64,000 bases of DNA from IMG/VR virus record IMGVR_UViG_3300025133_008097, positions 1 to 64,000 of that record, one strand, 5' to 3'. This stretch comes from a virus. The number at the start of each line of letters is the position of its first letter. Within the stretch, counting starts at the first letter, position 1. The notes below the pieces were generated by a model, which made no database searches, was not told the origin of the DNA, and saw nothing but the letters and a program-made list of their open reading frames with translations. Shown here in pieces: positions 3,465 to 36,000 of the stretch. Made by a program: the position numbers and the translations under genes.

Positions 3465-3470
3465 CACCAG

Positions 3471-3496
3471 GGCCCTACTTATTTATAGACAGGGCC
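3471..3496 (+). promoter_or_regulatory. Hairpin covering the ribosome binding site of the PIN-PhoH gene
   Basis: GGCCCT (3471-3476) can pair with AGGGCC (3491-3496) around a 14-base AT-rich loop. The right arm holds AGGG, the only Shine-Dalgarno-like sequence for the ATG at 3500. Pairing would hide it and could act as translational control. Confidence 0.35.
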
Positions 3497-3499
3497 TAT

Positions 3500-12731: not shown

Positions 12732-14231
12732 ATGACAAGAAGAAAATTATTCGTTTTTGAAATGGCGAACAATCACATGGGAGACGTCGAGCACGGCTTG
12801 CGTCTTATCCGAGAATTTGGAGCAGTTAAGGATAAATTCCCAGAATTTGACTTTGCCCTCAAATTTCAGTTTCGGAATATGGATACCTTTATTCATCCCG
12901 ACTATCGCGACAGGATGGATCTCAAATATGTGAAGCGATTCTCCGAAACGCGCCTTTCTCGAACCCAGTTTTTGAAATTAAAGCTGGAGGCTGAGAACTT
13001 GGGATTTATCCCCATGTGCACCGGCTTTGATGAAGACAGCGTCGATCGAATAGAAGAAATGGGATTTCCCATCATTAAGATTGCTAGCTGTTCCTTTACT
13101 GACTGGCCTCTTCTAAATAAAATCGCGGCAACAGATTTGCCCATTATTGCATCAACAGCCGGTTCCACTCTCAAGGAAATTGACAATGTAGTCGCCTTTT
13201 TCACTAATCGCGAAAAAGACCTTACAATCATGCACTGCGTGGGGGAATACCCGACAAAGACCACAAACCTTCAGCTTAATCAGCTGCGTTTGTTCTCAGA
13301 GCGGTACCCTAACGTGCGTGTAGGATACTCAACTCATGAGGACCCCAATGATCCTAATATTGTCCCCCTAGCAATTGCGATGGGAGCAGAGGTGTTTGAG
13401 AAACACGTAGGCGTCCCGACGGAGCAATATGCACTGAACGCCTATTCGGCTACACCAGAACAAGCGCAGAGGTGGCTAGAGTCCGCAAGGCGCGCCTTCG
13501 CAACGTGTGGAGATGTCCGGGGTAGGCCAGGGGCCTCCAAGAGCGAATTGGCCGATCTACGGCGCTTTAAGCGCGGCGTCTTTGTTGCCCGCGATATCAC
13601 TGCGGGGGAACGAGTAACACGTGAGGACGTATTTTATGCCTTCCCTTGTGGAGAAGGTCAAGTGTTGGCCAACGACATGTCTAAGTACACCGAGTTCGTG
13701 GCCACCACAGACTACAAAACAAACGACGCAGTAATGTTTGAAACAACCCGGGAAACCAAGCTACGCCAGAAAGTGTGGGACATTGTTCAGGATGTAAAAA
13801 GCCTGTTTAAGGACGGCAACGTTGTTATCCCAGGTAAAGCCGAGTTGGAAATTTCTCATCATTACGGAATAGACAAGTTTCGAGAGTTTGGTATTACAAT
13901 GGTTACGGTCGTAAATCGTGAATACTGCAAGAAATTAATTGCCGTCCTTCCAAAACAGTATCATCCAGAACAATATCATCTGCAGAAAGAAGAAACATTT
14001 TTGATTCTTTTTGGCGAATTGGAGTTGACATTGGATGGCGAAACCACTATATTAAAGACAGGCGATGTGGTAACTGTGAAACCAGAAGTGCGACATGCTT
14101 TTACAACAACGACGGGTGCAATAATTGAAGAGATTTCTTCTACTCATATCGTGAATGATTCGTTCTACACAGACGAAACGATCATAGATAACAAGAATCG
14201 AAAAACAATATTGCAACATTGGTTGAATTAG
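12732..14231 (+). CDS. neuB: NeuB-type sialic acid synthase with SAF and cupin domains
   Basis: 499 residues in three parts. Residues 1-265 are a NeuB barrel: EMANNHMGD, LKFQFR, IIKIASCSF, STAGSTLKEID, HCVGEYPTKTTN, VGYSTHEDPN and FEKHVGV are the family signposts. Residues about 275-340 are the SAF (antifreeze-like) lid, KRGVFVARDITAGERVTRED. Residues about 375-499 are a single-domain cupin with HPEQYHLQKEETFLIL and DVVTVKPEVRHAF. NeuB enzymes condense phosphoenolpyruvate with an N-acetyl sugar to make a nonulosonic acid (sialic, legionaminic or pseudaminic type). NeuB proteins are usually near 340-350 residues, so the cupin is an addition, perhaps a sugar-binding or isomerase module. Its DNA looks AT-richer than the NeuB part. 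No CMP-sialate synthetase was recognised nearby. Confidence 0.88.
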   Translation: MTRRKLFVFEMANNHMGDVEHGLRLIREFGAVKDKFPEFDFALKFQFRNMDTFIHPDYRDRMDLKYVKRFSETRLSRTQFLKLKLEAENLGFIPMCTGFDEDSVDRIEEMGFPIIKIASCSFTDWPLLNKIAATDLPIIASTAGSTLKEIDNVVAFFTNREKDLTIMHCVGEYPTKTTNLQLNQLRLFSERYPNVRVGYSTHEDPNDPNIVPLAIAMGAEVFEKHVGVPTEQYALNAYSATPEQAQRWLESARRAFATCGDVRGRPGASKSELADLRRFKRGVFVARDITAGERVTREDVFYAFPCGEGQVLANDMSKYTEFVATTDYKTNDAVMFETTRETKLRQKVWDIVQDVKSLFKDGNVVIPGKAELEISHHYGIDKFREFGITMVTVVNREYCKKLIAVLPKQYHPEQYHLQKEETFLILFGELELTLDGETTILKTGDVVTVKPEVRHAFTTTTGAIIEEISSTHIVNDSFYTDETIIDNKNRKTILQHWLN

Positions 14232-14239
14232 GAGAAGAT

Positions 14240-14446
14240 ATGAGCCAACCAGATAAGAGTAAAAAAGTGGTAAGCCAAATTGGCTATGATGATGCTGATG
14301 TAGAGCCGTTTACCAACAACTATCAGAGCTTGTATAGGGATTTGTTAGAAGAAAATCGGCTTCTTAAAGCTGAATTAGAAAAATATCAGGACGCCATAAA
14401 AGAGCTTTATGGCATTATACCAGAGGAGGACGACATCTATGAGTGA
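14240..14446 (+). CDS. Small coiled-coil hypothetical protein
   Basis: 68 residues from ATG 14240 with GGAGAAG upstream. The second half is a heptad-patterned acidic helix (RDLLEENRLLKAELEKY), a clear short coiled coil that probably dimerises. It overlaps the FKBP gene by eight bases. Function not recognised. Confidence 0.55.
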   Translation: MSQPDKSKKVVSQIGYDDADVEPFTNNYQSLYRDLLEENRLLKAELEKYQDAIKELYGIIPEEDDIYE

Positions 14447-14897
14447 AAAAATAACGACAGATAGCGGATTAGTAATGGCCACCCTAATAGAAGGAACTGG
14501 CGATACTCCATCTACTGGAGATAAAGTATTGATACATTATGAAATTTGGGTTGGAGAGGGAGTAACCACTTCCGAATATAATTCTGAGACCAATACCTAT
14601 AGTGACAGTATTCATGATAGTACTTATGATGAAAGAAATCCTTTTCACGGCCCAATAGAGGTGGTAATTGGCCGGCCAACACCGGATGATGATATCTATA
14701 CAATGGGAGATTCTATTCAAGGCATAGATGAAGCACTGGTGACGATGAAAGAGGGAGGAAAGAAGGAGCTTTTTATTCCGGCTTCACTAGCTTACGGAGA
14801 TTTGGGAGCCAGTAGTTTTCATACGTTCCACGGCTATCGCACCCCTCCCAGCACCCCTCTCAGGTGTCATATTGAGTTGGTAGAGATAAAGAAGTAA
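14439..14897 (+). CDS. FKBP-type peptidyl-prolyl isomerase
   Basis: 152 residues from ATG 14439 (GAGGAGG upstream). The FKBP core is present: GDKVLIHYEIWV, PIEVVIG, IQGIDEALVTMKEGGKKELFIPASLAYGD, then PPSTPLRCHIELVEI. A roughly 30-residue insertion rich in Ser, Thr and Tyr (EYNSETNTYSDSIHD) sits where the usual 'DG..FDSS' loop is. The enzyme would speed proline isomerisation or act as a folding helper in the cytoplasm, as there is no signal peptide. An FKBP inside a phage glycan cluster is uncommon. It may help fold the large virion proteins. Confidence 0.88.
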   Translation: MSEKITTDSGLVMATLIEGTGDTPSTGDKVLIHYEIWVGEGVTTSEYNSETNTYSDSIHDSTYDERNPFHGPIEVVIGRPTPDDDIYTMGDSIQGIDEALVTMKEGGKKELFIPASLAYGDLGASSFHTFHGYRTPPSTPLRCHIELVEIKK

Positions 14898-14899
14898 AA

Positions 14900-16813
14900 A
14901 TGACGAAGCGCCGAGCGCCAGGGTCAATGCAGAAAGCACCAAAGGACTCCCCCACTTTCGGGCCAGATTCCGTGGCTGAGGTAATTCCTCTTGACTTTGA
15001 TATCAAAAGTTTCACTCAGCCCAATCAAAAGATTTCTGATTATGTGATGGACTTTGTTGCTAAGCGTGGGGTTAAAGATGTCTTCTTGATCCCTGGCGGC
15101 GGATGCATCCACTTGGTGGATTCATTGGGTCGCCACCCCGATCTTAATTATATTTGTAATTTGCACGAGCAGGCTAGCGGCGTCGCCGCCGAAGCTTATG
15201 CTCAATACACAAATAACCTCGGCGTTGCTCTGGTTACCACCGGTCCCGGAAGTACAAATATTGTTACAGCAGTTGCGGCCGCGTGGCTAGACTCCACCCC
15301 TCTGATGATAATTTCAGGCCAAGTCCAAAAACGAGATATGGTAAATGGCCGCGGCACCCGGCAGATTGGGTTTCAAGAAATTCAGTCCACCGAGTTGGTA
15401 AAAGAAATCACTAAATATGCAGCTGTGGTAGATGACCCCAAATACATCAGATATCATTTTGAGAGGGCCTTTCACGAAGTCACCTCAGGGCGCCCGGGCC
15501 CAGTTTGGCTGGATATCCCCCTCGACATTCAAGCAGCGGAAATAGATATTAATGCGCTTCTCGGTTATTCTCCAATAATGGAGGCTCCTAAAATTGAAGA
15601 GGAGACCATTGATGCAATCATCGATGAGATAAATATTGCGGCGCGCCCAGTATTGCTCGTGGGTAACGGGGTCAGACTTTCTAAGTGCGAAAAACAGATG
15701 AACGAACTCGTCGATGCACTAAAGATCCCAGTCCTCACCACCTGGAAAGCCATTGACTTTTTTGGCGAAGACCACGAATGTTTTGCCGGCCGTCCCGGAA
15801 TCGCCGGCCAGCGAGGGGCCAATTTTACACAGCAAAATGCAGATTTGATCATTACGATCGGGGCGCGCCTAGACCATGGCCAAACAGCGTACCAACCCCA
15901 GAACTTCGCGCGCGGCGCAGTAAAAGTCATTGTTGACATCGACCCCTTCGAGATCCGCAAAATGGGAGAAGTGGAATACCCGATCTATGCTGACGCTCGC
16001 GAGTTCATTGCGAAGCTCCTTGCACGACGCTCCCAGATTAATAACGACAATAGCGACTGGCTGGAGACAGCCAAAGAGTGGCAGGAGGAATATCCGGTTG
16101 TTTTGGACGAGTATTGGGCCCCCGGCGGTCTTGTTAATAATTACGTATTTGTGGATGTTCTGTCTGAGTTGATGAAACCTACCGACTTGCTTATTCCTGG
16201 CTCGTCCGGAGCGTGCAGCGAAGTTACTATGCAGGCTTTTAAAGTAAAAGACGGAATGAGGATATTCAATAGTGAGGGCCTTGGGCCAATGGGGTTTGGA
16301 ATCGCGGCAAGCATGGGAGGCTGTATTGCTAGCGGCCGAAAGCACACTATTTGCGTCGATGGCGACGGCGGCTTCTTTATGAATGTTCAGGAACTGGAAG
16401 TAGTCCGCAGAGAGAAGCTACCCATTAAATTTTTTGTATTAAATAACGATGGCTATGTTTCCATTCGAAATACTCAAAATAAGCATTTCGGAGGACGTCA
16501 GGTTGCTTCGGGCCCGGAGAGCGGGTGTACACTACCGGATATTAAAAAGACGGCAGCCTGTTATGGTATTAAGTATTATTGTATTGATAGTCATGATGAG
16601 CTTCGTAAAAAGATGAAGTTGGTGCTGAATTATAAGGGCCCCGCAATTTGTGAAGTTAAGATGCCTCCCACGCAGGAGACGGCCCCTCGTACTGCTGCTT
16701 ATAAAAAGAAGGACGGCTCATTCGCCTCACGACCAATGGAAGATATGTATCCGTTTTTAGACCGCGATGAGCTAGCAGAAAATATGTTCATCGAGATCTT
16801 AGAGGATGAATAG
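14900..16813 (+). CDS. Thiamine-diphosphate enzyme, acetolactate-synthase-like (possible YerE-type)
   Basis: 637 residues with the three domains of the acetohydroxyacid-synthase family. The catalytic Glu is E90 in NLHEQASG; the central domain has PVLLVGNGV; the ThDP site has GDGGFF (488-493) and, 27 residues after its first Gly, NND (515-517). Family members carry two-carbon units from pyruvate. In this context (RfbH, SDRs, 4,6-dehydratase, C-methyltransferase) the best parallel is YerE, which adds an acetyl group to C4 of a 3,6-dideoxy-4-ketosugar in yersiniose synthesis. Branched-chain amino-acid synthesis is less likely, as no regulatory subunit or ilv gene is present. Substrate remains inferred. 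It has an N-terminal 40-residue extension and overlaps the next gene by eight bases. Confidence 0.85.
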   Translation: MTKRRAPGSMQKAPKDSPTFGPDSVAEVIPLDFDIKSFTQPNQKISDYVMDFVAKRGVKDVFLIPGGGCIHLVDSLGRHPDLNYICNLHEQASGVAAEAYAQYTNNLGVALVTTGPGSTNIVTAVAAAWLDSTPLMIISGQVQKRDMVNGRGTRQIGFQEIQSTELVKEITKYAAVVDDPKYIRYHFERAFHEVTSGRPGPVWLDIPLDIQAAEIDINALLGYSPIMEAPKIEEETIDAIIDEINIAARPVLLVGNGVRLSKCEKQMNELVDALKIPVLTTWKAIDFFGEDHECFAGRPGIAGQRGANFTQQNADLIITIGARLDHGQTAYQPQNFARGAVKVIVDIDPFEIRKMGEVEYPIYADAREFIAKLLARRSQINNDNSDWLETAKEWQEEYPVVLDEYWAPGGLVNNYVFVDVLSELMKPTDLLIPGSSGACSEVTMQAFKVKDGMRIFNSEGLGPMGFGIAASMGGCIASGRKHTICVDGDGGFFMNVQELEVVRREKLPIKFFVLNNDGYVSIRNTQNKHFGGRQVASGPESGCTLPDIKKTAACYGIKYYCIDSHDELRKKMKLVLNYKGPAICEVKMPPTQETAPRTAAYKKKDGSFASRPMEDMYPFLDRDELAENMFIEILEDE

Positions 16814-17687
16814 GGTACTCATCACCGGTGGATCGGGTTTTATTGCTCAAAGCTTATTGGGGGCCCTCCGCGGCGACTGGACAGTCATTTGTGCGGGCAG
16901 ACGCCAATTAGACCTCCTAGACAGCGAAAAAGTCTACAATTTCATCAAAAATGGCCAATTTGACGTTGTAATACATACAGCAAACTATGACGCTGCACCC
17001 TCTTTTACTACTAAAGATAAGAACAAAGTCCTCGAACAGAACCTTACAATGTTCTATAATCTTGCTCGATGTAGCGAGTTCTTCGGGAAAATGCTCTATT
17101 TTGGCTCCGGAGCAGAGTTCAGTCGCCCGCATTGGGTTCCGATGATGTCGGAAGACTACTTCGATACACATGTTCCTACAGATCAATACGGATTATCAAA
17201 GTATATTATGACTAAATATGCCGAAAAATCTAACAATATCTATAATTTACGTTTGTTTGCTATAACTGGGGGCGCCGATGACTGGAGATATCGCTTCGTT
17301 TCCCTGGCTTGCTGCAAGGCGCTCTTTGATATGCCCATTACATTCAGACAAAACATCTTTTTTGACTTTTTATACATCAAAGATTTGATAAATATTGTTA
17401 AATGGTTTATGGTGAACTCGCCGCGCCACCATGTCTACAACACCTGCAGAGGAGAAGTCCACAGTTACCGGTGGATTGCTGAAAAAATATGCCAATTTGC
17501 TGGTAAAAACCTGGAAATTCGCAGCGACGTTCCTGGTTTGATGTCCGAATATAGTGGAGACAACTCTCGCCTACTCGAAGAATTAACAGATTATAAGTTT
17601 GTGCCCATGGAAGAAAGCATACAAGAGATGCTGTTGCATCTTCAACAGAATAAAGATTCCATTACACCCGAAACTTTTGCGTACTGA
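16806..17687 (+). CDS. Extended SDR, NAD-dependent sugar epimerase/reductase
   Basis: 293 residues. N-terminal LITGGSGFIAQSL is the TGxxGxxG cofactor loop; FGSGAEF gives the Ser region and YGLSKYIMTKY provides the YxxxK catalytic pair. C-terminal FFDFLYIKDLINIVKW and YNTCRGEVHSYRWIA are typical for nucleotide-sugar SDRs. It could reduce or epimerise a 4-keto or acetyl side chain, as YerF does after YerE. Adjacent position and eight-base overlap with the ThDP gene support a shared pathway. Exact reaction unknown. Confidence 0.8.
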   Translation: MNRVLITGGSGFIAQSLLGALRGDWTVICAGRRQLDLLDSEKVYNFIKNGQFDVVIHTANYDAAPSFTTKDKNKVLEQNLTMFYNLARCSEFFGKMLYFGSGAEFSRPHWVPMMSEDYFDTHVPTDQYGLSKYIMTKYAEKSNNIYNLRLFAITGGADDWRYRFVSLACCKALFDMPITFRQNIFFDFLYIKDLINIVKWFMVNSPRHHVYNTCRGEVHSYRWIAEKICQFAGKNLEIRSDVPGLMSEYSGDNSRLLEELTDYKFVPMEESIQEMLLHLQQNKDSITPETFAY

Positions 17688-17707: not shown

Positions 17708-18841
17708 ATGCCTATAACTAACTGCCGCGTTTGCGCCGGCCCCTTTTTCAAGGAGGCGCTCTTAACCTTTACTAATATGCCTAAAGCTGCGCAGCATCTG
17801 CCCACCCTAGCCGATCTTATCAACGACAAAGGCATCGATTTGGAGGTATGTCAGTGCCAAAAGTGCGGCCTGGTGCAATTAACAAATGACCCAGTCCCCT
17901 ATTATAAGGATGTGATAAGAGCCGCGGCATTCTCGGGAGAAATGAAAGCTTTTAGGGAAGATCAATTTAAAGACTTTGTACACCAGTATAGTCTCCAGGA
18001 TAAAAAGGTAATTGAAATTGGAACCGGAAAAGGGGAATATCTTTCTTTAATGAAAGACGCCGGCGCCAAAGCGTACGGAATTGAGCACGCCCAGGAGTCG
18101 GTAGATGAATGTCTCTCTGCGGGACTGCAAGTGACAAAGGAATATATTAATCACTGGGGCTACCGTTTGCGTGATGCGCCATTTGATGCTTTTTTCATTC
18201 TCAACTTCTTTGAACATATTCCAGATCCTAATGCAACTCTATCCTCACTTCACTTAAATTTGGCAGATGATGGACTCGGGCTCATCGAAGTCCCCAATTT
18301 TGATATGATCTTGAAGAACAATCTTTTTACAGAGTTTATCGGAGACCATCTTTTCTATTTTACTAAAGAGACGCTGGCTTACGTTCTAGAAAAGAATGGC
18401 TTCGAGGTATTGGAGTGTAAGGAGATCTGGTATGATTATATTATTTCGGCCACTGTAAGAAAGAGGCAGAAGACTGATGTTAGCAGCTTTGATACTCAGC
18501 GCCAGAAGCTACAAGAAGAGATAGATGCTTATACAACGCGCCATAATAGGGTGGCTGTGTGGGGCGCGGGCCACCAGGCGCTAGCAGTCTTATCCCTTCT
18601 CGATCTTGAGGACAAAGTTGAGTACGTTGTCGACTCTGCCCCATTCAAACAGGGTAAGTACACGCCAGCCACCCACATTCCTATTTTTCCTCCGGATACT
18701 TTAAATGTTGAGTCCGTCGATGCAGTCATAATCATGGCGGCTAGCTATTCGGATGGGGTCGCAAAGAAGCTGCGAGATCGTTTTGATCCTACAATAGAAG
18801 TGGCAATTTTACGCGATCACGGTCTCGAACACATAAAATAA
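17708..18841 (+). CDS. Sugar C-methyltransferase, zinc-finger/SAM/C-terminal domain type
   Basis: 377 residues in the layout of deoxysugar C-methyltransferases (TylC3/NovU group). An N-terminal zinc-binding module has CRVCAG and, later, CQCQKCGLVQL. The central SAM domain has VIEIGTGKGEYL and ILNFFEHIPDP. The C-terminal Rossmann-like domain has VAVWGAGHQALAV and AVIIMAASYSDGV. These enzymes add a methyl to C3 or C5 of NDP-4-ketosugars, making branched sugars. Preceded by AAGGAG. It ends next to the promoter region at 18850. Confidence 0.85.
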   Translation: MPITNCRVCAGPFFKEALLTFTNMPKAAQHLPTLADLINDKGIDLEVCQCQKCGLVQLTNDPVPYYKDVIRAAAFSGEMKAFREDQFKDFVHQYSLQDKKVIEIGTGKGEYLSLMKDAGAKAYGIEHAQESVDECLSAGLQVTKEYINHWGYRLRDAPFDAFFILNFFEHIPDPNATLSSLHLNLADDGLGLIEVPNFDMILKNNLFTEFIGDHLFYFTKETLAYVLEKNGFEVLECKEIWYDYIISATVRKRQKTDVSSFDTQRQKLQEEIDAYTTRHNRVAVWGAGHQALAVLSLLDLEDKVEYVVDSAPFKQGKYTPATHIPIFPPDTLNVESVDAVIIMAASYSDGVAKKLRDRFDPTIEVAILRDHGLEHIK

Positions 18842-19163: not shown

Positions 19164-19517
19164 ATGGCAAAGAAGAATCAAGAGTTTGTATCAGATGTAA
19201 CAGGTGAAGTGTGGCACAAGATTAACTGGAAGAAGTGGGATAAAATCATTGACCACGTAGGAGTTATGGTAGAGTCACACAATAGTCCAGGAAAAAATGG
19301 TACAACCGCCGTTCTTAACGAGGGCGACGAAGTATTTATAGACGATATCCGCGGCCGAATTAATCCTCAGTACCGTGCTGCCGATCCCACCGGAAAGATC
19401 TGGTTCATTCCGATCAGCAAGGTGAAGGTAATAGAAGGCTCTGGTCCAGGCGAGGGCACCAAATATGACCGCGGCTATCGCGGCGGCGTAAGAATTAAGG
19501 AGAACGACAATGGCTAA
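19164..19517 (+). CDS. Hypothetical protein next to radical SAM enzyme
   Basis: 117 residues, Trp- and Lys-rich at the N-terminus (WHKINWKKWDKIIDHVG), beta-rich in the middle (GDEVFIDDIRGRINPQYRAADP), with a Gly-rich basic C-terminus ending GGVRIKENDNG. Not recognised. It overlaps the radical SAM gene by eight bases, so the two may work together as adaptor and enzyme, or as modified protein and enzyme; there is no Cys-rich or repeat core typical of peptide precursors. Confidence 0.5.
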   Translation: MAKKNQEFVSDVTGEVWHKINWKKWDKIIDHVGVMVESHNSPGKNGTTAVLNEGDEVFIDDIRGRINPQYRAADPTGKIWFIPISKVKVIEGSGPGEGTKYDRGYRGGVRIKENDNG

Positions 19518-20811
19518 TTCACATATGAAGATGTTTCAATCCCCCCTAGAGGGCAACCCTTTAGACGAGGCTGTCGACAAAACTGTCGCCTTCGACATGA
19601 GGAACACCACCATTAAGGACGAAAAAGATCGCCAACACTGGCTAAAGGGGTATAAGCCAGCAGTGTACGAAAAGATGGCAAAATACCCAGAAAAGATCGC
19701 CAACGGCGAAAGCATCGCGATTATTCAGTTTCAATATGACTATCTGTGCAATATGGATTGCGAGCATTGCTGCATTGATAAGTTCTATGTTCCTAAAGCT
19801 TGGGAGGCCGCATCCGGCCGGCGCAAGTTTGAACTAGATGACGTACGTGAATTGTCACGACAGGCTGATGAGATGGGTCTCGCAAACTTTGTTATTACTG
19901 GCGGCGAGCCTCTTATCATGAAAGAGTTCGATGAACTTATTGAGGCTATTGACCCCTCTAAGTTTTACCTCGTTAGTGACTCAAATGGCTGGAACCTAGA
20001 CTACAAGCGCGCTGCTCATCTTAAAAAGATCGGTCTAGACAAAGTCCAGCTTAGCTTAGATGGAATCACCGCGGAAGCTCACGATACTTTCCGCCGAAAG
20101 CCCGGCGCCTTCGATCGCGCAATGCGCGCAATTGACGCTTGTAAAGAAGCGGGCTTGCACATTATTTTATCCACTGTAATTTGGAAGGATCGAATCTACA
20201 CAGACGAATGGGTTCAGTTTTTAGACTTCGCAAAAGAGAAGCAAGTTGGAACTTACATTGTATACGCAAAGCCCGTTGGCGCCTACGAGGGCCAGACGGA
20301 TGCGATGATGACAGAGAAGGAAGGAAAGATCCTTCAGAAATTCGAGGAAGAATACGACATCTTTACTCATATGACCCCTTCATATGGCCGTGACATCGGC
20401 TGCATCGCTGTGAAGAGAATGATTCCCATCTCTCGTTATGGAGATGTAATGCCCTGCCCTTACCAGCATGTATCTCTCGGAAATTTCTTTGAGGAGCCTT
20501 TAGCGGATATTATTAATCGGGGTCTTAACATTAAGTGGTTTGATCCGAAGAAGAATATGCCCTGCATTTGTGGGGTTGATAAAGGATTCATTAAGAATGT
20601 TATCTCCCAGACTTATGGAGATAACGAGGTGCCGGTAAGATACGACCGCGTATTTACTGACGATGATTTTCTTGACAAAGGCAATATGGGTGATGTACAA
20701 TTAGGAAGTGGATGCGGTCAAGAGGTGGACACCTGGAAGAACGCTCCTCTAATCACCCTGCGCGGGAAGAAGATGAAAGATCACAACTTTGTTGACGACA
20801 CGGGAGCATAA
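19510..20811 (+). CDS. Radical SAM enzyme with SPASM-like C-terminus
   Basis: 433 residues. CNMDCEHC (C80, C84, C87) is the CxxxCxxC site for the SAM-binding 4Fe-4S cluster; GGEP (131-134) contacts SAM; LVSDSNGW and VQLSLDG are the following barrel strands. The end carries further Cys in DIGCIAV, VMPCPYQH and MPCICGV, plus one in GSGCGQ, as in SPASM or twitch auxiliary-cluster domains. Such enzymes modify peptides, proteins or small molecules by radical chemistry. It is directly upstream of the phage iscA and iscU genes, which could supply its clusters. Substrate unknown; protein modification or a sugar step are both open. Confidence 0.85.
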   Translation: MANSHMKMFQSPLEGNPLDEAVDKTVAFDMRNTTIKDEKDRQHWLKGYKPAVYEKMAKYPEKIANGESIAIIQFQYDYLCNMDCEHCCIDKFYVPKAWEAASGRRKFELDDVRELSRQADEMGLANFVITGGEPLIMKEFDELIEAIDPSKFYLVSDSNGWNLDYKRAAHLKKIGLDKVQLSLDGITAEAHDTFRRKPGAFDRAMRAIDACKEAGLHIILSTVIWKDRIYTDEWVQFLDFAKEKQVGTYIVYAKPVGAYEGQTDAMMTEKEGKILQKFEEEYDIFTHMTPSYGRDIGCIAVKRMIPISRYGDVMPCPYQHVSLGNFFEEPLADIINRGLNIKWFDPKKNMPCICGVDKGFIKNVISQTYGDNEVPVRYDRVFTDDDFLDKGNMGDVQLGSGCGQEVDTWKNAPLITLRGKKMKDHNFVDDTGA

Positions 20812-20816
20812 GATAA

Positions 20817-21125
20817 ATGATTACATTCACAGAAGCAGCCGTGACTCATCTTAAGGGCGCCCTAGAAGAAGGGGACATAATAAGGGTCGCCGTAAAGGGC
20901 GGCGGATGCTCTGGAATGTCATATTCATTGAGTGTAGAAGACGAGTTCGACGAGGAGGATATTCTTATTGAATATGACGATGTAAAGGTTTATGTAGACC
21001 CTCACAGCTCATTTATTTTAAATGACACGACGGTAGACTATGTGGTGACGTTACAACAGCAAGGATTTAGTTTTAATAATCCCAATGCGAATACTACTTG
21101 TGGATGCGGGTCTTCCTTTAGTTAA
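20817..21125 (+). CDS. iscA: A-type iron-sulfur carrier (IscA/ErpA family)
   Basis: 102 residues with the three conserved Cys of the family: C31 in KGGGCSGMSY and C95/C97 in the C-terminal CGCGSSF. The size equals bacterial IscA/ErpA. Such proteins receive clusters from IscU-type scaffolds and deliver 4Fe-4S clusters to apo-enzymes. HesB/IscA-like genes are known from aquatic phages. Here it sits five bases after the radical SAM gene and just before IscU, so it is likely made with its clients. Confidence 0.93.
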   Translation: MITFTEAAVTHLKGALEEGDIIRVAVKGGGCSGMSYSLSVEDEFDEEDILIEYDDVKVYVDPHSSFILNDTTVDYVVTLQQQGFSFNNPNANTTCGCGSSFS

Positions 21126-21158: not shown

Positions 21159-21548
21159 ATGGCCTATACAAAAAAAGTAATTGATCACTTCGAAAACCCA
21201 CGCAATGTGGGATCAATGGATAAAAATGATAATAGTGTTGGAACCGGCATTGTGGGTGCACCCGAATGTGGCGATGTCATGAAGCTCCAAATTAAAGTGG
21301 ACGACGACAACTGCATATGTGATGCAAAGTTTAAAACCTTTGGTTGTGGGTCAGCGATTGCTGCATCGTCGCTTGCTACGGAATGGATCAAGGGGAAGAC
21401 CCTGAAAGAAGCTGCTGAAATTGATAATATGCAGATTGTAGAGGAGCTATCTCTACCCCCCGTTAAAATTCACTGTTCTGTATTGGCAGAGGAAGCTATT
21501 AAAGCAGCCATTGAAAATTTAGAAAGTAAAGCTGGACAGAAAGAATAA
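21159..21548 (+). CDS. iscU: Iron-sulfur cluster scaffold IscU
   Basis: 129 residues. All scaffold residues are present at the numbering I recall for E. coli IscU: C37, D39, C63, H105 and C106, plus LPPVK at 99-103, the HscA chaperone contact. Long stretches such as VIDHFENPRNVGS, GAPECGDVMKLQIKV and PPVKIHCSVLAE are nearly the same as in proteobacteria. IscU assembles 2Fe-2S clusters with IscS as sulfur donor. No cysteine desulfurase, HscA or HscB is encoded here, so host partners must be used. AAGGAG lies upstream; the following gene has its own promoter. Confidence 0.96.
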   Translation: MAYTKKVIDHFENPRNVGSMDKNDNSVGTGIVGAPECGDVMKLQIKVDDDNCICDAKFKTFGCGSAIAASSLATEWIKGKTLKEAAEIDNMQIVEELSLPPVKIHCSVLAEEAIKAAIENLESKAGQKE

Positions 21549-21587: not shown

Positions 21588-22946
21588 ATGAGTGATAAAA
21601 AACAACAAATTTTAGATCTAGTTAAAGAATACATTCTTGAAAAGAGACAATCGGAGTCTTGGACTCCCGGGGAAGACTGGGTTTCGTACTCCGGGCCCAT
21701 TTTCGACGAGAACGAATATGTAGCCGCCTTCGAGAGTCTCCTCACAGAGTGGCTCATCTTCGGAAAGAAGGGTCGTGAATTCGAATTGGAGTTCGCACAA
21801 CACCTCGGAAAAGATGCCGGCATTCTTACCAACTCGGGCTCCTCGGCTAATTTGCTAGCAGTTAGTGCTCTTAAGTCTCGTAAATGGTTTAATCTCAAAC
21901 CTGGCGCCAAATTTATCACCCCGGTGGTTTGTTTTCCGACCACCATCAACCCTCTCATCCAAAATGGTTTCGAACCAGTATTTGTGGATGTGACGATTCC
22001 AGATTTGAATTTAGATCTGGATCAAGTAGAGAGAGTTCTGGAAGAAGACCCAGAGATTAAAGGAATTATGTTCGCTCATGTATTGGGTAATCCTCCTGAT
22101 ATGGATCGCTTAATGTTCCTGGTTAAAAAATATGATTTAATTTTTGTAGAAGATGCCTGCGATGCATTGGGCTCTTATTATGATGGTAAAAAGCTTGGCT
22201 CTTTTGGTACAATCTCTACTTGCTCCTTTTTCCCCGCCCACCATATGACAATGGGAGAGGGCGGCTTTGTAGCCACTGACAGCAGCGTGAAACGTATGGT
22301 TCTTGCTAGTTATCGTGACTGGGGGAGGGCTTGCTATTGCAATACTGCCAAGCCCGGCTCTGTAACCAGCGGCACTGCCTGCGGAGATCGATTTAAGAAT
22401 TGGCTACCAGGAATGCCTACTACAACTTTTGATCATCGCTATGTTTTTGATGAAATAGGGTATAATTTGAAGCCATTAGATTTGGCTGCTGCAATGGGCT
22501 TGGAACAAATTAAGAAACTTCCAATGCTTGATGCATCTCGACGAAAGAATTTTGATCGCCTGAAGGAAATTTTTGCACCCTATGAGGAGTATTTTCATCT
22601 ACCAGAGGCCACCGAGAAGGCGGACCCCTGTTGGTTTGGGTTCCTTCTTACTATCCGCGATGGTGCTAATTTTGGTCGTCATGATTTAGTGAACTTTTTA
22701 GAGAGCAAAAAAATTCAAACTCGTTCCTATTTTAGTGGTCTCGTACTGGCTCATCCCGGGTATATACATCTTGCGGGTCCTTACGGAAATTTAGAAGAGA
22801 CCTTCCCGGTGGCCGCTAAAGTGACTCATGATAGTTTCTTTTTGGGCACCTTCCACGGGCTCACCACTGAGAAGTTGGACTACATAGAGGCCAGTGTGAA
22901 AGAGTTCTTTGATCGCCCAGCCGGACTGACGATATTGGAGAATTAG
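21588..22946 (+). CDS. rfbH: RfbH/AscC-type sugar 3-dehydrase (PMP and 2Fe-2S dependent)
   Basis: 452 residues of the DegT/DnrJ/EryC1 fold. The PLP-linking Lys of aminotransferases is replaced by His in SFFPAHHMTMGEGG (H218), a hallmark of CDP-6-deoxy-4-keto-glucose 3-dehydrase (E1). The E1 cluster ligands also appear: C191 (EDACD), C249 and C251 (ACYC), and C265 (TACGDRF). The first three keep the known spacing (57 and 1 residues between), while the last gap is 13 instead of 7 because of a six-residue insertion. The enzyme removes the C3 hydroxyl of an NDP-4-keto-6-deoxyhexose to make a 3,6-dideoxysugar and needs reducing electrons. A ferredoxin gene follows after one base. The nucleotide (CDP or other) cannot be read from the sequence. 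Confidence 0.85.
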   Translation: MSDKKQQILDLVKEYILEKRQSESWTPGEDWVSYSGPIFDENEYVAAFESLLTEWLIFGKKGREFELEFAQHLGKDAGILTNSGSSANLLAVSALKSRKWFNLKPGAKFITPVVCFPTTINPLIQNGFEPVFVDVTIPDLNLDLDQVERVLEEDPEIKGIMFAHVLGNPPDMDRLMFLVKKYDLIFVEDACDALGSYYDGKKLGSFGTISTCSFFPAHHMTMGEGGFVATDSSVKRMVLASYRDWGRACYCNTAKPGSVTSGTACGDRFKNWLPGMPTTTFDHRYVFDEIGYNLKPLDLAAAMGLEQIKKLPMLDASRRKNFDRLKEIFAPYEEYFHLPEATEKADPCWFGFLLTIRDGANFGRHDLVNFLESKKIQTRSYFSGLVLAHPGYIHLAGPYGNLEETFPVAAKVTHDSFFLGTFHGLTTEKLDYIEASVKEFFDRPAGLTILEN

Positions 22947-22947
22947 G

Positions 22948-23244
22948 ATGGCCTTTATTATCGTAGAGCCCTGCGTGGGAACCTGTGACACCGCCTGTGT
23001 TGATGCATGTCCAGTGGATTGTATTCATGGTCCCATCGATATCGTTGGCGCCGGCGCAGAGGTCACCGCCCCCGGATTTAACCCCACAGGTCTGCAGCTA
23101 TATATTGACCCAGAAGAGTGTATTGATTGTGCAGCTTGTGAGCCAGAGTGCCCGGTAGAAGCCATTTATGACGAGACCAGCGTCCCCGCTAAGTGGGATT
23201 CTTTCATAGATAAGAATTATAATTTCTTTGGACGTAACCGGTGA
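22948..23244 (+). CDS. Seven-iron-type ferredoxin
   Basis: 98 residues. Cys at 9, 17, 21, 25 and 58, 61, 64, 68 follow the C-x7-C-x3-C and C-x2-C-x2-C-x3-CP spacing of FdxA/Azotobacter FdI-type 3Fe-4S plus 4Fe-4S ferredoxins, with one extra Cys at 13. The loop between the two halves is longer than in FdxA, with a Gly/Pro-rich stretch (about 30-50). It transfers electrons at low potential. Only one base separates it from the RfbH-type gene, so electron supply to that 3-dehydrase is the leading idea. Supplying radical SAM enzymes is the alternative. It overlaps the next gene by four bases. Confidence 0.92.
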   Translation: MAFIIVEPCVGTCDTACVDACPVDCIHGPIDIVGAGAEVTAPGFNPTGLQLYIDPEECIDCAACEPECPVEAIYDETSVPAKWDSFIDKNYNFFGRNR

Positions 23245-24191
23245 AAATTGTTTATATTACCGGATGCCTAGGGTTTATGGCATCCTATGCGGTGAGGAGA
23301 GCGCTAGCGCGCGGCTGGAAAGTCCGCGGCGTGGACAAACTTACCTATGCCGCTAATCCCACCCTACTAGAAGAATTCTACCAGCATCCTAATTTTGAGT
23401 TTGAGGAAACTGACATCAAGGATCTTGAGCGTCTTTATGATTGCGACTACGTCATTAATTATGCGGCAGAGTCTCATGTAGGAAATAGTATTGTTAATAG
23501 TGATGAGTTCATGGATAGCAATATCTTAGGAGTCCGGAATTTACTTGATTTGGTGAGGTTTAAACCAATCAACTGTAATGATCGACCCACCTTTTTCCAT
23601 ATTAGTACCGACGAAGTGTACGGAGATATTGACGCCGGCGTACACACCGAACACGACCTTCTCAAGCCAAGCAACCCCTACTCGGCAGCTAAAGCCGCCG
23701 GCGATATGTTAATTCACGCGTGGGCGCGCACCTATGGAATTCAGTATATTATCCTCCGACCTACAAACAATTATGGCATCGGCCAATATCCCGAGAAGCT
23801 CGTCCCTCTAGCAATAAAAAATTTGTTAAGAGAAAAGAAAGTAAGACTTCACGATAAAGGCGAACCAGTTCGAAACTGGCTGCATGCTGATGATACAGCC
23901 GCGGCCGTGATGGCTATTATAGATTCTGGTACAGTTAACCAAATTTATAATGTAGCTGGAGGGTTTGAGCAGTCAAACAAAGAGACGGTGCGTAAGATTA
24001 TATCGGCTTACCACGGTCCCGATGCCCAATGGGACGACTATGTAGATTTTTCGGTAGTCCGACCAGGACAGGATGTGCGATATGCGCTTGATGACTCAAA
24101 GCTGCGGGCATTAGGCTGGGCCCCCACAAAAAATTTTGATGAAGAAATACCCAAAATTGTGGAATACTATAAAAACCATTTTATTTGGTAG
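23241..24191 (+). CDS. NDP-hexose 4,6-dehydratase, RmlB-like
   Basis: 316 residues from GTG 23241, overlapping the ferredoxin stop. Key segments: YITGCLGFMAS (NAD loop), VDKLTYAAN, ISTDEVYGD (Thr-Asp-Glu catalytic set), YSAAKAAGDM (YxxxK), RPTNNYGIGQYPEKLVPLAI and GEPVRNWLHADD. These match dTDP-glucose 4,6-dehydratases. The product, a 4-keto-6-deoxy sugar, is what an RfbH-type enzyme uses, and the adjacency suggests a direct relay. No thymidylyl- or cytidylyl-hexose synthetase was found, so the activated sugar must come from the host or another part of the phage. Confidence 0.88.
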   Translation: MKIVYITGCLGFMASYAVRRALARGWKVRGVDKLTYAANPTLLEEFYQHPNFEFEETDIKDLERLYDCDYVINYAAESHVGNSIVNSDEFMDSNILGVRNLLDLVRFKPINCNDRPTFFHISTDEVYGDIDAGVHTEHDLLKPSNPYSAAKAAGDMLIHAWARTYGIQYIILRPTNNYGIGQYPEKLVPLAIKNLLREKKVRLHDKGEPVRNWLHADDTAAAVMAIIDSGTVNQIYNVAGGFEQSNKETVRKIISAYHGPDAQWDDYVDFSVVRPGQDVRYALDDSKLRALGWAPTKNFDEEIPKIVEYYKNHFIW

Positions 24192-24236: not shown

Positions 24237-26033
24237 ATGAAAATATTACTAACGTGCGCTACGATTGATGAATTTCATCGAATTGAGAACGCACATGATA
24301 GCCACTATCCCCTTGGATTAGGGTATCTCCACTCTTACCTAGAGAGCTTAGATCGAGGCTATGAAGTGCTGACTCGGTTTCTGAATAATGTTACAAAAGA
24401 AAAATGTATGGAAACCCTCGCCAAAGATCTGGAAGAATTTAAACCAGATATAGTAGGGATCTCGATGATGACCCATAGTCGCGTCGGTGCCTTCCGCCTT
24501 ATAAAATATCTAGAAGAAAAACACCCTCAGGTTAAAATTGTTATCGGAGGTATGCACGTGAGCGTGATGTATCGCCAACTAACAGAGCATTATAGAAATG
24601 TAGTGTGCGCTATCGGCGAAGGCGAGATAACACTGGGTGAACTGGTTCAGTGTTGGGACGAGGAAGGAGACCTTAATAACGTCGCCGGAATTGCTTTTTA
24701 CGACCACAAGAAAGAAGAAGTGGTGACCACCGAAGAACGCGGCCTAATTGATGACCTTGATATCTTGCCCTTTCCTAAACACGAACTGTTTTTGTGGGAA
24801 GGAAAGACAATTGCCGGGCTTCTCACAAGTCGCGGCTGCCCCTATAAATGCAATTTTTGTGTCCTCGACGCAGCCTCTCGCCGTAAGGTTCGATGCCGAT
24901 CAGCAAAGAATATCGTCGACGAGGTAGAGCAGATACTCGAACGTCACCCTACTGTTAATACTGTATGGATTCACGATGATGCGTTCATGATTATCAAGGA
25001 TAGAACAATTGAGTTTTGCGAAGAAGTCATTCGCCGCGGCATAAAAACGCAGTTTATTTGTAGCGCCCGGTTTCGCCCTATTTCGCGCGAGGTCGTCATG
25101 CTGATGAGAGATGCTGGGTTTATCCAGGTTATGTTTGGTTTAGAGTCGGGCTCGGAACCCGTTATGAAGTTGATGAAAAAAGGCCTCACCCAGAAAGCAG
25201 TGCGTCATGCGATGAAGCTGTTTGCGGAGACTGGGATTAAACCTACTGCCTTTTTAATTTCTGGCTTGCCGGGAGAGACTCATGAGACAGTCGCTGAAAC
25301 AATCGATTTCGTTCAAGAACTTCAGTATCTCCATTATCTTTATTATGATGACATCGGTGTGGCTAGCATTTATCCGGGTACCGAGTTATTTACTTTAGCC
25401 AAAGAAGCGAAGATGGAGGTCCCCGGTTATGGGATTATCGATGACGAATTCTGGCTTACTGGCTTGGATGTTCCATTTTATGAGGTGGACCATAAATACG
25501 AGCAGCTGCTTGAATGGAAAGAACAAATCCGAGATGCAGTATCTCTCGATCGGATATTAAAAAATCCAGATACATTTTTGCAACAAAGAAAACTAATACC
25601 TCACATTATTCAGTATGCATGGCGGTTTAATCTTAACGGCATAGTTTCTGAGGTAATGAAAATTCTCAATAATAACCAGAATTTAACGTTAAGCATGCTG
25701 CGGAGCCTCTTTTTAGGAGAGACTCGAACAAAAGAACTTCAGTCGGTTCATACAGCTTTTGAAAAAGGGCTTATTAAAACACTTTTGTCGCAAATGGACA
25801 TTGGGGCCCAAAAAGACTTCATTGTAAAACATACCGAACAAGTTAAGAAAGATAAAGAAACAGTTGCGCGCTGGGTTGCCATTCAAGAAAAAGAGCAATC
25901 CGGAGTCGAGGGCAAAAACTCCACGCATGCGGCAGCAGTAGTTACTAAGGATGGAACAATGATTGCGCCGTTTGTCGACGATGGCTTTGATGATGAACGA
26001 AAGCGAAAGAGAGCCTTTAACATCATTCAATAA
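24237..26033 (+). CDS. Cobalamin-binding radical SAM enzyme
   Basis: 598 residues. The first 150 form a B12-binding Rossmann domain (KPDIVGISMMTHSRVGAF, KIVIGGMHVSV, AIGEGE). The radical SAM site is CPYKCNFC (C201, C205, C208), followed by IHDDAFMI, MFGLESGSEPVMKLM and LISGLPGET. The C-terminal 180 residues are helical and charged. These class B enzymes methylate unactivated carbons or perform ring and sugar rearrangements; the family is common in glycan and antibiotic clusters. A 45-base gap precedes it with AAGAGGA near the ATG. It needs both B12 and a 4Fe-4S cluster. The substrate is not evident. Confidence 0.88.
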   Translation: MKILLTCATIDEFHRIENAHDSHYPLGLGYLHSYLESLDRGYEVLTRFLNNVTKEKCMETLAKDLEEFKPDIVGISMMTHSRVGAFRLIKYLEEKHPQVKIVIGGMHVSVMYRQLTEHYRNVVCAIGEGEITLGELVQCWDEEGDLNNVAGIAFYDHKKEEVVTTEERGLIDDLDILPFPKHELFLWEGKTIAGLLTSRGCPYKCNFCVLDAASRRKVRCRSAKNIVDEVEQILERHPTVNTVWIHDDAFMIIKDRTIEFCEEVIRRGIKTQFICSARFRPISREVVMLMRDAGFIQVMFGLESGSEPVMKLMKKGLTQKAVRHAMKLFAETGIKPTAFLISGLPGETHETVAETIDFVQELQYLHYLYYDDIGVASIYPGTELFTLAKEAKMEVPGYGIIDDEFWLTGLDVPFYEVDHKYEQLLEWKEQIRDAVSLDRILKNPDTFLQQRKLIPHIIQYAWRFNLNGIVSEVMKILNNNQNLTLSMLRSLFLGETRTKELQSVHTAFEKGLIKTLLSQMDIGAQKDFIVKHTEQVKKDKETVARWVAIQEKEQSGVEGKNSTHAAAVVTKDGTMIAPFVDDGFDDERKRKRAFNIIQ

Positions 26034-33015: not shown

Positions 33016-36000
33016 ATGGCGACCACATCCTCTAAAGGCAATACTCTCGATTTTGACAGCATCAATGTATTTAAGAAATTTTCTTCTTATATGCCTTGGT
33101 ATGATAGCACTGGGGGTCACTATTCTGTTATTGTGCAGCCGGCTGCCATAGAATCCACAATAGAATTAGATGATACCGCGGCCCTCAAGGAGCAAGCAAT
33201 AGATGCTTTTATAGAATTCTACTTGCCAGAGTTCTATCCTTTTCTATATGAAAACGGCACCGGGAGTGACTTTTTAGCTACTTATACCACCATCCGATCA
33301 GAAATTTCGGACAGCTTAGTGTTCGTTAAAAATAGTGCGACTGAATCACCTTTTCCTAGTACCACAAAGTTTTTGTTTAGTACCACCTCTGGTGAAATTA
33401 ATTTTAAGCTGATTCGCTTGGGACTCTTGTCCCATGGGATGACACAAGAAGAGACCACCGCCAATATACAATCCATTGCTCGCGAGCTTCTGGTAACACG
33501 CGCCCGAAATCGAGACTGTCCTGACGATTTCGATAGTGGCCTCCCCTCATACAGTTCGGGGCTGCCATCTTTTGCTACGGCACGCACTTATTTTAACAAC
33601 CAACAAGGAATCTCCGCCTCCCCTGGTACTGCGACTCAAATGTCTTTGGGAACACTTACCGAGATTATAAATGATCTCCAAATCGCACTACGATCATATG
33701 AGCAGCAGGTTAACATGTTCCCAGCACCACTTCGGATTCCCTTAAGTTTGCCGGCAATTAGATCGGACCTTAAGCGACTTCTGGGGACATTAAAAATATA
33801 TATAACGAAAGACATTAACCTCTCGGGCTATGTTGTCTCTCCCTTTGGAGACGATGATACTTTACGACTAGAGTGGGATCCCCAACAGCAGATTCAATCT
33901 ATAAGCTATGAGATTGACATGGGAGATGATGCGGTGGAAGAACCTCTGAAGATAGGGCTCTTCTCTTTAGTGAAATATGGTGCGGCTACAAAAGATCGGT
34001 GGCTAATGGCAACCATAGCTAATCAATATGCGATTCGAGAAGACTTTAGATCTAATAACACCGCATTGGGCCCAGGCCTGCCCTCGTTTCTTGAGTTTGT
34101 GGAAAACACCTACAGGGACCTCTTGGTCGACCCTTCTGCAAACCCAAGCGCCGGGGAAACAGCTATCAATTTCACCGGCCCCCCCATTCCTGGCGTCAAC
34201 GCGGACTTATATAGTAAGGTTTTCAACGGCCGCGACCCAGATAGTCCCATCGATCTTGCCAACCCCTCAGCTTTGGCAGAAAAGATTAGTACCTTTATGA
34301 CCTCCGAAGAGGTAGGGAAGATTCAGGCCGCCCTCCAAAACCCGGTGCTCCTAACTGCCATGTATAATGATTCTAAGTCGAAATCTTATACGACGAATTT
34401 TCCTCTTCCGGAAATTATTGACGAGGTAATAGAACTTATTAACGCTGCTCAAGGGATAAGTGTCCAAACTGAAGAGAGGAGAAGGATCAAAGAAGAAATC
34501 TCAGCGATAGAATCTGAAATCACTTATTATGAAGAAAATGTCATCACGCTTTTTAATGATGGAACTATGGGGGGCACAGAAGATGACCTCGCTGCGTACG
34601 CCGATCTAAAAGTAGATCTACAAAATGCCCGTAATAGACTATCAAAAGCCAAACAAGGCGGGTCATCTGCAGCAACTTCCACACCAGGCGGCGGGACGTG
34701 CGAAGGGTCTGAATGTGCCGAGGGTATTGTTGATCGGGTTTTGTCGTTATTAGGCCTCGCTGATTTAATTGCAGAGGCGCTTATTTGTACAACGATGGGA
34801 ACAACCTTTTCCCTGGAGCGAATCAACCAAGCAATCGATCTAGGATTTAGTATTAAGGATTTCGTGGAAGATTACGGTTCTCCTGAGCTACCGCGTCCCA
34901 TGCTTATAATGCCGGATATGCCGTCTATTAATATTTCATTTTCGATCACTGGGGACCCTCCTCTCTGGAAACAGATCCGCGATATAATACTTCAGACATT
35001 GGCCGAAGTAGCCTTTGATATTATTAAAGGCATTGCTGAACTTATCAAGCACAACTGCGATAACTTATTGAATCGTCCCGAAAACGAGGGTGAGATAGAT
35101 TTAGCGAGTGCTGTGGCAAACAATCCTGTAGGTGGCAGCGCGGGGAATGGTCTTGACCCAACCTCACAAGACTTGGTTGACGAGGCCTTTGCCGCACACG
35201 GATTTGATCAAAATACAGGCTACGCTTATTTAAGTGCAATCGGCAGCCGGCTGACTCCTTTAGAGATATGTCGACTGTTCCACTCCCCTGATGCTGTCTC
35301 AGATGAGACCATCGAGAAAATTCGTTTAAGCAATCTTGAATTCGACGAAGAGAACATCCGAGCAATGCAAAGTCGAAACGAGATTCTAGGGTTCTTCCAG
35401 AGCATGGCCCAGATTGCGGATGTGTTTCAAATTTGCAATGACATTATTAATAATGTGGACATACGAGCTTCTTTTGAAAACTATTGTTTATCTTGCGACG
35501 ACATAGCATCCTTGGCCGATCAGGCCAGCATCCAGAAGCTCGCCGACTTCCTAAACGGCGACGGCATTCCAGTAGACGTCCCAGAGATTGATTTCTTGTG
35601 CCCCGAGAATGACAAGTTCGTGCCCAATCCGATTGTGAGTAGGGTAATACCTCAAGTGTATAACACTCTGATTGAGAATGTTAAGATGCAGTTTGTATAT
35701 TCGTTGGAAGCAGCCCGAGTTACTCTTTTGGAGCCCTTTGTTTCGGTTAATGAAAACCCAACCCTGCAGGCAGCCATAGGTGCGATTCCTCCCAAGATGC
35801 GACCACCAACCCCTCCCGCTATCGACCCAGCCTTCTTATCTATTTTGGTAGACCTTCTAAACACATTATCTAACGCTCAAATACAGATAGATCCAGATAT
35901 ATGTCCGGATGTAAACGTGGCAAAGTTTGGAGTCGACGTTGACGACTTCTTACCAATGTTGGGGGATTTAGCCGATATTTTGAACAATGCTTTGTCGATC

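Follow-up and report, generated by a model that had tools for sequence, protein, structure and literature searches.

A putative E1/RfbH-type dehydrase with an enlarged cluster loop in a marine T4-like virus, and its candidate sugar pathway

One described system close to the protein reported here is E1 of Yersinia pseudotuberculosis (AscC/DdhC/RfbH; CDP-6-deoxy-L-threo-D-glycero-4-hexulose 3-dehydrase; structures 3bb8 and 3bcx), which has the same full-length fold, a histidine in place of the PLP lysine and a four-cysteine site. To our knowledge, the E1 cluster motif has one fixed spacing. SpnQ works with ferredoxin or flavodoxin instead of E3, according to PMC8987622, and YerE attaches a two-carbon unit to CDP-3,6-dideoxy-4-keto-glucose, the E1 product, according to PMC12247030. 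The latter, a review, states that ketone-accepting split-gene transketolases have been put forward from gene clusters only (13 putative sequences, every one of them from Streptomycetes), and reports none of them as characterized in vitro. In marine viruses, rfbH is already among the named genes (PMC10653327, PMC11295528), and RfbH and IscU genes are so named across PMC10653327, PMC11295528, PMC5332604 and PMC9038755. Among the matches listed, no title or abstract opening in the open-licence literature mentioned the loop of a phage E1 or the pairing of such an E1 with branching enzymes.

Here we examined a window of 64,000 nucleotides, which is the whole stretch of DNA analysed, from one IMG/VR virus record (IMGVR_UViG_3300025133_008097). 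The source record is a 116.8-kb virus with a T4-type terminase, portal gp20, capsid gp23 and a baseplate wedge protein, and the carrier is a marine T4-like virus. The features under study are listed in Table 1. In the structural half of the window two ORFs are very long, at 3883 aa (43049-54700) and 2087 aa (33016-39279), and a PHROG search with the 2087-aa ORF gave no match.

Table 1 Features of the E1 gene cluster in the window
Feature	Position	Strand	Remark
YerE-like thiamine-diphosphate carboligase (acetolactate-synthase family)	14900..16813	+	candidate C2-branching enzyme
Extended SDR (epimerase/reductase)	16806..17687	+	candidate ketoreductase
Sugar C-methyltransferase-like	17708..18841	+	zinc-binding, methyltransferase and C-terminal domains
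117-aa protein	19164..19517	+	overlaps radical-SAM gene by 8 bases
Radical SAM/SPASM enzyme	19510..20811	+	
A-type Fe-S carrier (IscA/SufA/ErpA family)	20817..21125	+	Cys31/95/97
IscU-type Fe-S scaffold	21159..21548	+	Cys37/63/106 and Asp39
E1/RfbH-type NDP-4-keto-6-deoxyhexose 3-dehydrase	21588..22946	+	ATG start, stop codon included; 452 aa; His218; C191, C249, C251, C265
Enlarged cluster loop with flanking cysteines	22338..22382	+	codons 251-265; computed from ORF start
7-Fe (FdxA-type) ferredoxin	22948..23244	+	98 aa; candidate electron donor
RmlB-like NDP-glucose 4,6-dehydratase	23241..24191	+	closest to dTDP-glucose type; expected maker of E1 substrate
B12-binding radical SAM enzyme	24237..26033	+	

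The E1/RfbH-type protein and its cluster loop

Judged by its sequence, the 452-aa ORF belongs to the E1/RfbH family on the defining features that we tested, apart from the exact last spacing of its cysteine motif. It scored 456.4 bits against NCBIfam NF011936 'RfbH', which is above the curated cut-off of 423, and with phmmer its residues 3-442, near full length, aligned with Yersinia E1 3bcx (E 1.9e-99), the second Yersinia E1 match being 3bb8, the H220K mutant. The protein scored 336.6 bits to E1 vs 170.1 bits to ColD, and its predicted model matched 3bb8 with a VIA-align Z of 53.1 and an rmsd of 1.8 over 415 residues. The family assignment of the original prediction, an RfbH-type dehydrase, is therefore confirmed by the profile, the alignment and the fold of the model.

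The cysteines of the whole ORF are at positions 115, 191, 212, 249, 251, 265 and 348, and His218 is followed by His219. In the phmmer alignment C191, C249, C251, C265 and H218 face their E1 counterparts, with His218 opposite E1 His220, so that the histidine does occupy the position of the PLP lysine as had been proposed. The four cysteines and the histidine were intact in 138/138 aligned E1 loci (with the best 80 of 91 from the viral scan). We take the equivalents of the four cysteines to be the 2Fe-2S ligands in E1. The gaps that had been predicted were read again from the ORF as C191-x57-C249-x1-C251-x13-C265, which departs from the exact spacing C-x57-C-x1-C-x7-C in its last gap, and the insertion indeed adjoins the four-cysteine site, with 6 additional residues between the final two cysteines compared with Yersinia E1. 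Since E1 homologs elsewhere have last gaps of 10, 11 or 12, and first gaps of 60-62 also occur, we take the exact cysteine spacing to be typical of the E1/RfbH family and not defining for it. Loop length varies across the family (7, 10, 11, 12 and 13 residues).

The loop comprises residues 252-264, at 13 aa compared with the usual last gap of 7, and the loop-13 sequences share the consensus C-N-[TS]-x-K-P-G-[ND]-V-T-x-G-T-A-C, in which P256, G257 and T263 were invariant across 61 non-redundant rows. An artefact or frameshift as the source of the long loop was ruled out, as the loop is kept in these 61 rows. The distribution of the loop was followed in viral contigs by a pattern-based protein scan for E1 relatives (91 found, best 80 of 91 kept), and in prokaryotes by the same scan on one genome per species across 84,980 species, which reached close relatives alone and gave 14 loci. 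Two protein searches at E <= 1e-85 were added: one of the 385 genomes of the class of a Maricaulis bin, at which 21 genomes matched and all 23 matches were taken as loci, and the other of the 198 genomes of the phylum of an Elusimicrobia bin, at which 75 genomes matched and the best 20 of 76 matches were taken. The last gap was 13 in 73/81 viral loci and 11 in the other 8/81 (with the best 80 of 91 from the viral scan), the 73 including the window's own sequence twice (L001 and L081). Among the 57 loci from the genome collections (best 20 of 76 in the second search), 49 had a gap of 7 and five a gap of 13, while gaps of 10, 11 and 12 occurred in a single locus each.

The five loop-13 rows from genome bins (L082, L083, L084, L096 and L117) represent 3 contigs in 2 bins, as L096 is the same place as L082, and L117 the same as L084. 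The ORF lists of L082 and L083 contain glycosyltransferase-like proteins, a split transketolase, an SDR, E1 and RmlB, ordered as in phage contigs; a neighbour scan showed that the neighbours of L084 match those of L082 and L083; and in the tree L082 adjoins the viral L004. We take L082, L083 and L084 to be phage contigs inside bins, going by gene order and the tree, with a Pfam scan covering four L082 proteins. The three were binned as Maricaulis and Thaumarchaeota, they resemble phage glycan clusters, and the bins may be contaminated.

In the 52 clearly cellular E1s examined (best 20 of 76 in the second search), the gap was 7 in 49, and 10, 11 or 12 in the others; a 13-residue loop was found in none of these 52 (with the same best 20 of 76). 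Comparison with named records showed a loop of 11 in two cyanophages, one marine virus and a 642-kb uncultured phage, and of 7 in two Streptomyces and one Sphingomonas plasmid RfbH (L313, which was below the match limit, H1 and H6-H8 were left out). An E1 tree was then built by a quick method from 115 non-redundant rows with the loop columns removed; the rows taken out beforehand were L001, L081, L096, L117, L002 and L067, together with any whose identity to a retained row reached 95%. All 61 loop-13 rows of the 115 fell on one side of a single branch (SH-aLRT 98), with one label change on the tree, and apart from two phage-like contigs from metagenome bins all members of this clade are viral. 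Because the loop-13 rows form one branch with its own consensus of invariant residues, we regard the insertion as a fixed, clade-specific and apparently once-gained character of a marine phage clade. It is neither unique to the window nor ordinary in bacteria. The idea that the insertion might be specific to viruses thus stands only in part: the clearly cellular E1s have gaps of 7 (49/52), 10, 11 or 12 and not 13, but the loop is shared beyond the window and is not general to viruses, and a length of 13 as 'virus-specific in general' was rejected since the cyanophage and giant-phage E1s have 11. A virus clade with another loop length and its own conserved sequence allows the choice of donor to be tested independently of loop length.

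In an AlphaFold2 model of the window E1 the pLDDT was 93.7 overall but about 70 in the loop, whose two blocks had values of 69 and 72. A bacterial control E1 with a 7-residue loop (L090) reached only 46 in block 261-270, below the window loop, at an alignment depth of 32 rows vs 74 rows for the window E1. As the control is even lower, the low loop pLDDT is not evidence against C265.

Gene neighbourhood, substrate supply and electron donor

Upstream of E1 lie several glycosyltransferase-like genes and genes for a NeuB-like protein, the thiamine enzyme, an SDR, the C-methyltransferase, the radical SAM/SPASM enzyme, the A-type carrier and IscU; downstream lie the 7-Fe ferredoxin, the RmlB-like dehydratase, the B12-radical SAM enzyme, a second SDR, a sulfotransferase-like protein and a GDP-mannose dehydratase. 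In relatives, E1 is often preceded at about 815 bases by an SDR homolog. The NeuB-like synthase (12732-14231) has a C-terminal cupin domain and suggests a nonulosonate-type sugar too, and a FKBP-type peptidyl-prolyl isomerase-like gene (14409-14897) stands directly before the YerE-like gene.

An RmlB-like homolog (at least 43% identity) was present in 69/75 loop-13 E1 loci, and in 45 it is the gene that immediately follows E1; in the window the ferredoxin gene sits between the two. The window dehydratase shares 38-39% identity with two dTDP-type RfbB proteins of Streptomyces vs 22% with one CDP-type RfbG. A nucleotidyltransferase (NTP_transferase) was detected in 0/35 viral records, and therefore NDP-glucose would come from the host; viral records may be fragments, so that such absences are weak. 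In the control bacterial plasmid locus, an annotated FAD-binding oxidoreductase, rfbF, rfbG and rfbH occur together.

One base separates the E1 stop codon from the ferredoxin gene, which overlaps the RmlB-like gene by 4 bases. Cysteines 9, 17, 21, 58, 61, 64 and 68 of the ferredoxin align in two stretches with the solved 7-Fe ferredoxin 1bc6, and the 3Fe and 4Fe cysteine pattern is present. The assignment of these cysteines to the 3Fe or the 4Fe cluster presumably follows that of Azotobacter FdI. Among the E1 loci scanned, the window alone has a 7-Fe ferredoxin directly behind E1, and in 50 E1-bearing records this ferredoxin was found only in the window's virus, the one other match being a short and weak 24-residue stretch in a 392-codon frame. 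These records, which also serve for the thiamine enzymes below, are G000 and those of 49 of the 75 loop-13 loci, with L065, L007, L008 and L009 left out. Relatives of the window ferredoxin in other viral contigs (127 found, best 80 of 127 kept) lie in varied places, and some close ones of these 80 lie beside a baseplate-like gene. Because the gene is confined to the window among the 50 records and its relatives lie in varied places, the ferredoxin may have another role. In L206, L207, L210-L212, L214 and L218, IscU, a 7-Fe ferredoxin and an A-type carrier occur in a row; in L206 this IscU-ferredoxin-IscA block comes after a gene for a family A DNA polymerase, and the cluster recurs at that place in L207.

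As for E3, a protein with Fer2, FAD and NAD domains, Fer2 was found in 0/35 viral records, the window's included, records that may be fragments. NAD_binding_1 was present in 2/47 viral records (L035 and L037, near copies), the window's not among them, and flavodoxin in 0/47; these records too may be fragments, which makes the absence of flavodoxin weak. The 47-record scans omitted the records of L002, L011 and L064, and as a positive control NAD_binding_1 was recovered in the control plasmid with the rfbFGH cluster. A FAD/NAD-binding reductase without Fer2 lies about 25 kb from E1 in the record of L035 (L314:1459-2244), with a like match in the L037 record. From the E3 and flavodoxin scans and the ferredoxin gene behind E1, we therefore infer that E1 receives its electrons from a ferredoxin-type supply, the phage's own ferredoxin being the likely donor in the window.

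The Fe-S genes before E1 include an IscU with three cysteines and Asp39, which scored 211.0 bits against TIGR01999 (cut-off 192.4). Upstream of E1 in L010 and L011, IscU stands between two genes for A-type carriers. A scan with the SPASM enzyme gave 7 loci, one being the window's own record; the enzyme is 79-97% conserved in the six other viral contigs and is better conserved than E1 among the few phages that have it, and in the window the 117-aa ORF precedes the SPASM gene.

Alternation of two thiamine enzymes

The best solved relative of the window thiamine enzyme is 8rph at 383 bits, vs 279.8 bits for the best acetolactate synthase, and 8rph is described as JanthE, a YerE-like, ketone-accepting enzyme (PMC12188165). 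Many relatives lack this enzyme and carry a miniature split transketolase. In L082 it is encoded at 3247-3888 and 3872-4348 (213 and 158 aa), with Pfam matches to the transketolase N-terminal and pyrimidine-binding domains, and its N-part matches a split-chain transketolase in the PDB.

In whole records the YerE-like enzyme was found in 18/50, the split transketolase in 21/50, both in 0/50 and neither in 11/50, including records of 183 kb and 118 kb. The probability of no overlap was 1.9e-6 (hypergeometric), or 2.1e-6 by Fisher's test with two near copies removed, both of which ignore kinship. Within about 10 kb of E1 in the 75 loci, the YerE-like enzyme alone was seen in 23, the transketolase alone in 30, neither in 21 and both in one (L067, outside the 50-record set). 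One stop codon interrupts the transketolase match in the records of L017, L021, L040 and L058 and the YerE-like match in that of L034, and L035 and L037 show weak transketolase matches (37%, E about 1e-16).

On the E1 tree we counted at least 10 switches between the YerE-like enzyme and the transketolase over 38 labelled rows, so the two thiamine enzymes have been exchanged often. In a 46-row version, which adds eight labels from the neighbour scan, there were 12 switches, vs a mean of 15 and a minimum of 11 in 200 shuffles. For the switch tree L071, L054 and L064 were represented by L048, L050 and L063, into which they had been merged as near-identical rows, and L037 was left out. Such an alternation is what alternative enzymes at one step would give.

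Proposed route, its alternatives and known systems

We consider it rather probable that, as a whole, a phage E1 is reduced via ferredoxin and its product branched by a thiamine enzyme, for a surface glycan; the fold, family, key residues, clade, gene order and the division between the two thiamine enzymes are established by the results above, and the occupancy of the cluster, the substrate nucleotide, the electron donor, the product and its purpose are what we infer in this proposal. The RmlB-like dehydratase would make an NDP-4-keto-6-deoxyhexose, from which E1 would remove the C3 hydroxyl, using PMP as cofactor, His218 as acid/base and one 2Fe-2S cluster on C191, C249, C251 and C265. The 3,4-hexoseen intermediate would then be reduced with ferredoxin electrons and no dedicated E3, the donor probably being the 7-Fe ferredoxin behind E1 in the window virus and a host ferredoxin in relatives. 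The 4-keto-3,6-dideoxy product would be branched at C4, by the YerE-like enzyme here and by the split transketolase in many relatives, after which reduction by an SDR may yield the branched sugar, for use in a surface glycan directed by the phage. The 13-residue loop would have been gained once in the virus lineage and would still supply the fourth cysteine. The C-methyltransferase at 17708 might have the same intermediate as its substrate, and the two radical SAM enzymes in the cluster could be clients of the ferredoxin.

A different role for the loop, which puts the original prediction in more specific form, namely that it alters the cluster potential or docking so that a small ferredoxin and not E3 reduces E1, appears unlikely to us. 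It would be in keeping with a loop of constant length 13 in which P, G and T never vary, unlike a freely drifting one, with the clade's searched records being free of E3-like domains apart from two exceptions, and with the ferredoxin gene directly behind the window E1. On the other hand, two Streptomyces RfbH proteins, from dTDP loci with a 2,3-dehydratase, have 7 residues although the source on SpnQ has it using ferredoxin or flavodoxin (PMC8987622), and the persistent 11-residue cyanophage type indicates that other lengths are tolerated. On our reading these two proteins are SpnQ-like, as judged by their neighbours, SpnQ itself being outside the alignment; since such relatives keep 7, ferredoxin use would seem to need no long loop. 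That the enlarged loop disables the cluster and leaves a ColD-like, electron-free enzyme is very improbable: the model fold is also close to ColD (Z 48.2 to 3b8x), but the four cysteines are invariant in the aligned rows, which is unexpected if the cluster were lost, and the sequence match to E1 is far better in bits than that to ColD. Cluster loss of the ColD type was thus rejected, the four conserved cysteines being at odds with ColD's absent Fe-S site.

Radical SAM enzymes require reduced Fe-S donors, and it is quite possible, though somewhat short of an even chance, that IscA, IscU and the ferredoxin serve the SPASM and B12-radical SAM enzymes, E1 being merely inserted among them and fed with host electrons. 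Five relatives (L002, L010, L011, L013 and L047) have the SPASM enzyme, IscA, IscU and E1 but no ferredoxin; of these, L002 is apparently L047 in shortened form, and L010, L011 and L013 become a single row at the 95% level. The viral contigs with IscU-ferredoxin-IscA blocks listed above show no E1 among the flanking genes displayed, and Fe-S assembly with many radical SAM genes is in print for marine phages (PMC5332604). Yet E1 has its own need of electrons and a 2Fe-2S cluster, and the ferredoxin gene is tightly set between E1 and the gene of the dehydratase presumed to make its substrate. We find it rather doubtful that the pathway ends in a 3,6-dideoxy, trideoxy or amino sugar lacking the C4 branch, with the thiamine enzyme acting elsewhere, for example on a precursor linked to the NeuB-like gene. 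That gene is present at 12732-14231, 11/50 records have neither thiamine enzyme, and E1, ColD and SpnQ also lead to unbranched sugars (see PMC8987622); against this, the two thiamine enzymes alternate and are rarely together (0/50 records, one exception in 75 loci), and the best solved relative of the window enzyme is YerE-like and ketone-accepting.

The reading we prefer is still that of a ferredoxin-reduced E1 with a branched product. Its widest form, in which a marine T4-like phage lineage has its own dTDP-based route to C4-branched 3,6-dideoxy sugars, with a ferredoxin-reduced loop-13 E1 and a YerE-like enzyme and a miniature split transketolase that repeatedly took each other's place, is put forward tentatively, at a little less than even odds. 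The larger point is the alternation of the YerE-like enzyme and the split transketolase in E1-bearing phages. Phages that swap both enzymes around the same E1 offer comparative support and compact enzymes, such as that of L082. If the proposal is true, these phages would offer a natural set of cases for testing whether split transketolases branch keto sugars, an idea as yet unproven, and the branch added by the split transketolase would be hydroxyacetyl rather than acetyl.

Compared with Yersinia E1, the window protein has a last gap of 13 instead of 7, the neighbouring dehydratase is dTDP-like, and the virus records searched lack a Fer2-type E3 and a nucleotidyltransferase match. With SpnQ-type enzymes (dTDP-4-keto-2,6-dideoxyglucose 3-dehydrases; here the two Streptomyces plasmid rfbH loci beside rfbB) the locus shares the dTDP-type partner, and, as in the window, no E3 is annotated in the stretch of those loci that was seen; they differ in having a 7-residue loop and a 2,3-dehydratase, for which the scanned window genes gave no match. 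The yersiniose A pathway combines E1 with YerE, and the window likewise has E1, a YerE-like carboligase and an SDR in one cluster, but its dehydratase is of the dTDP and not the CDP type, the cluster is phage-carried, and a split transketolase replaces YerE in many relatives. The RfbH of cyanophages and a giant phage (S-H68, RN05-S, LR756502) and of Marine virus AG-345-D19 is phage-borne too, lying in S-H68 and RN05-S among annotated glycan genes, yet these homologs have an 11-residue loop, V-G-x-x-N-x-x-x-x-G-x-C, and are about 39-40% identical. ColD (GDP-4-keto-6-deoxymannose 3-dehydratase) has the same fold and histidine substitution as the window E1 and is described as having no Fe-S cluster (PMC8987622), whereas the window protein keeps the four cysteines.
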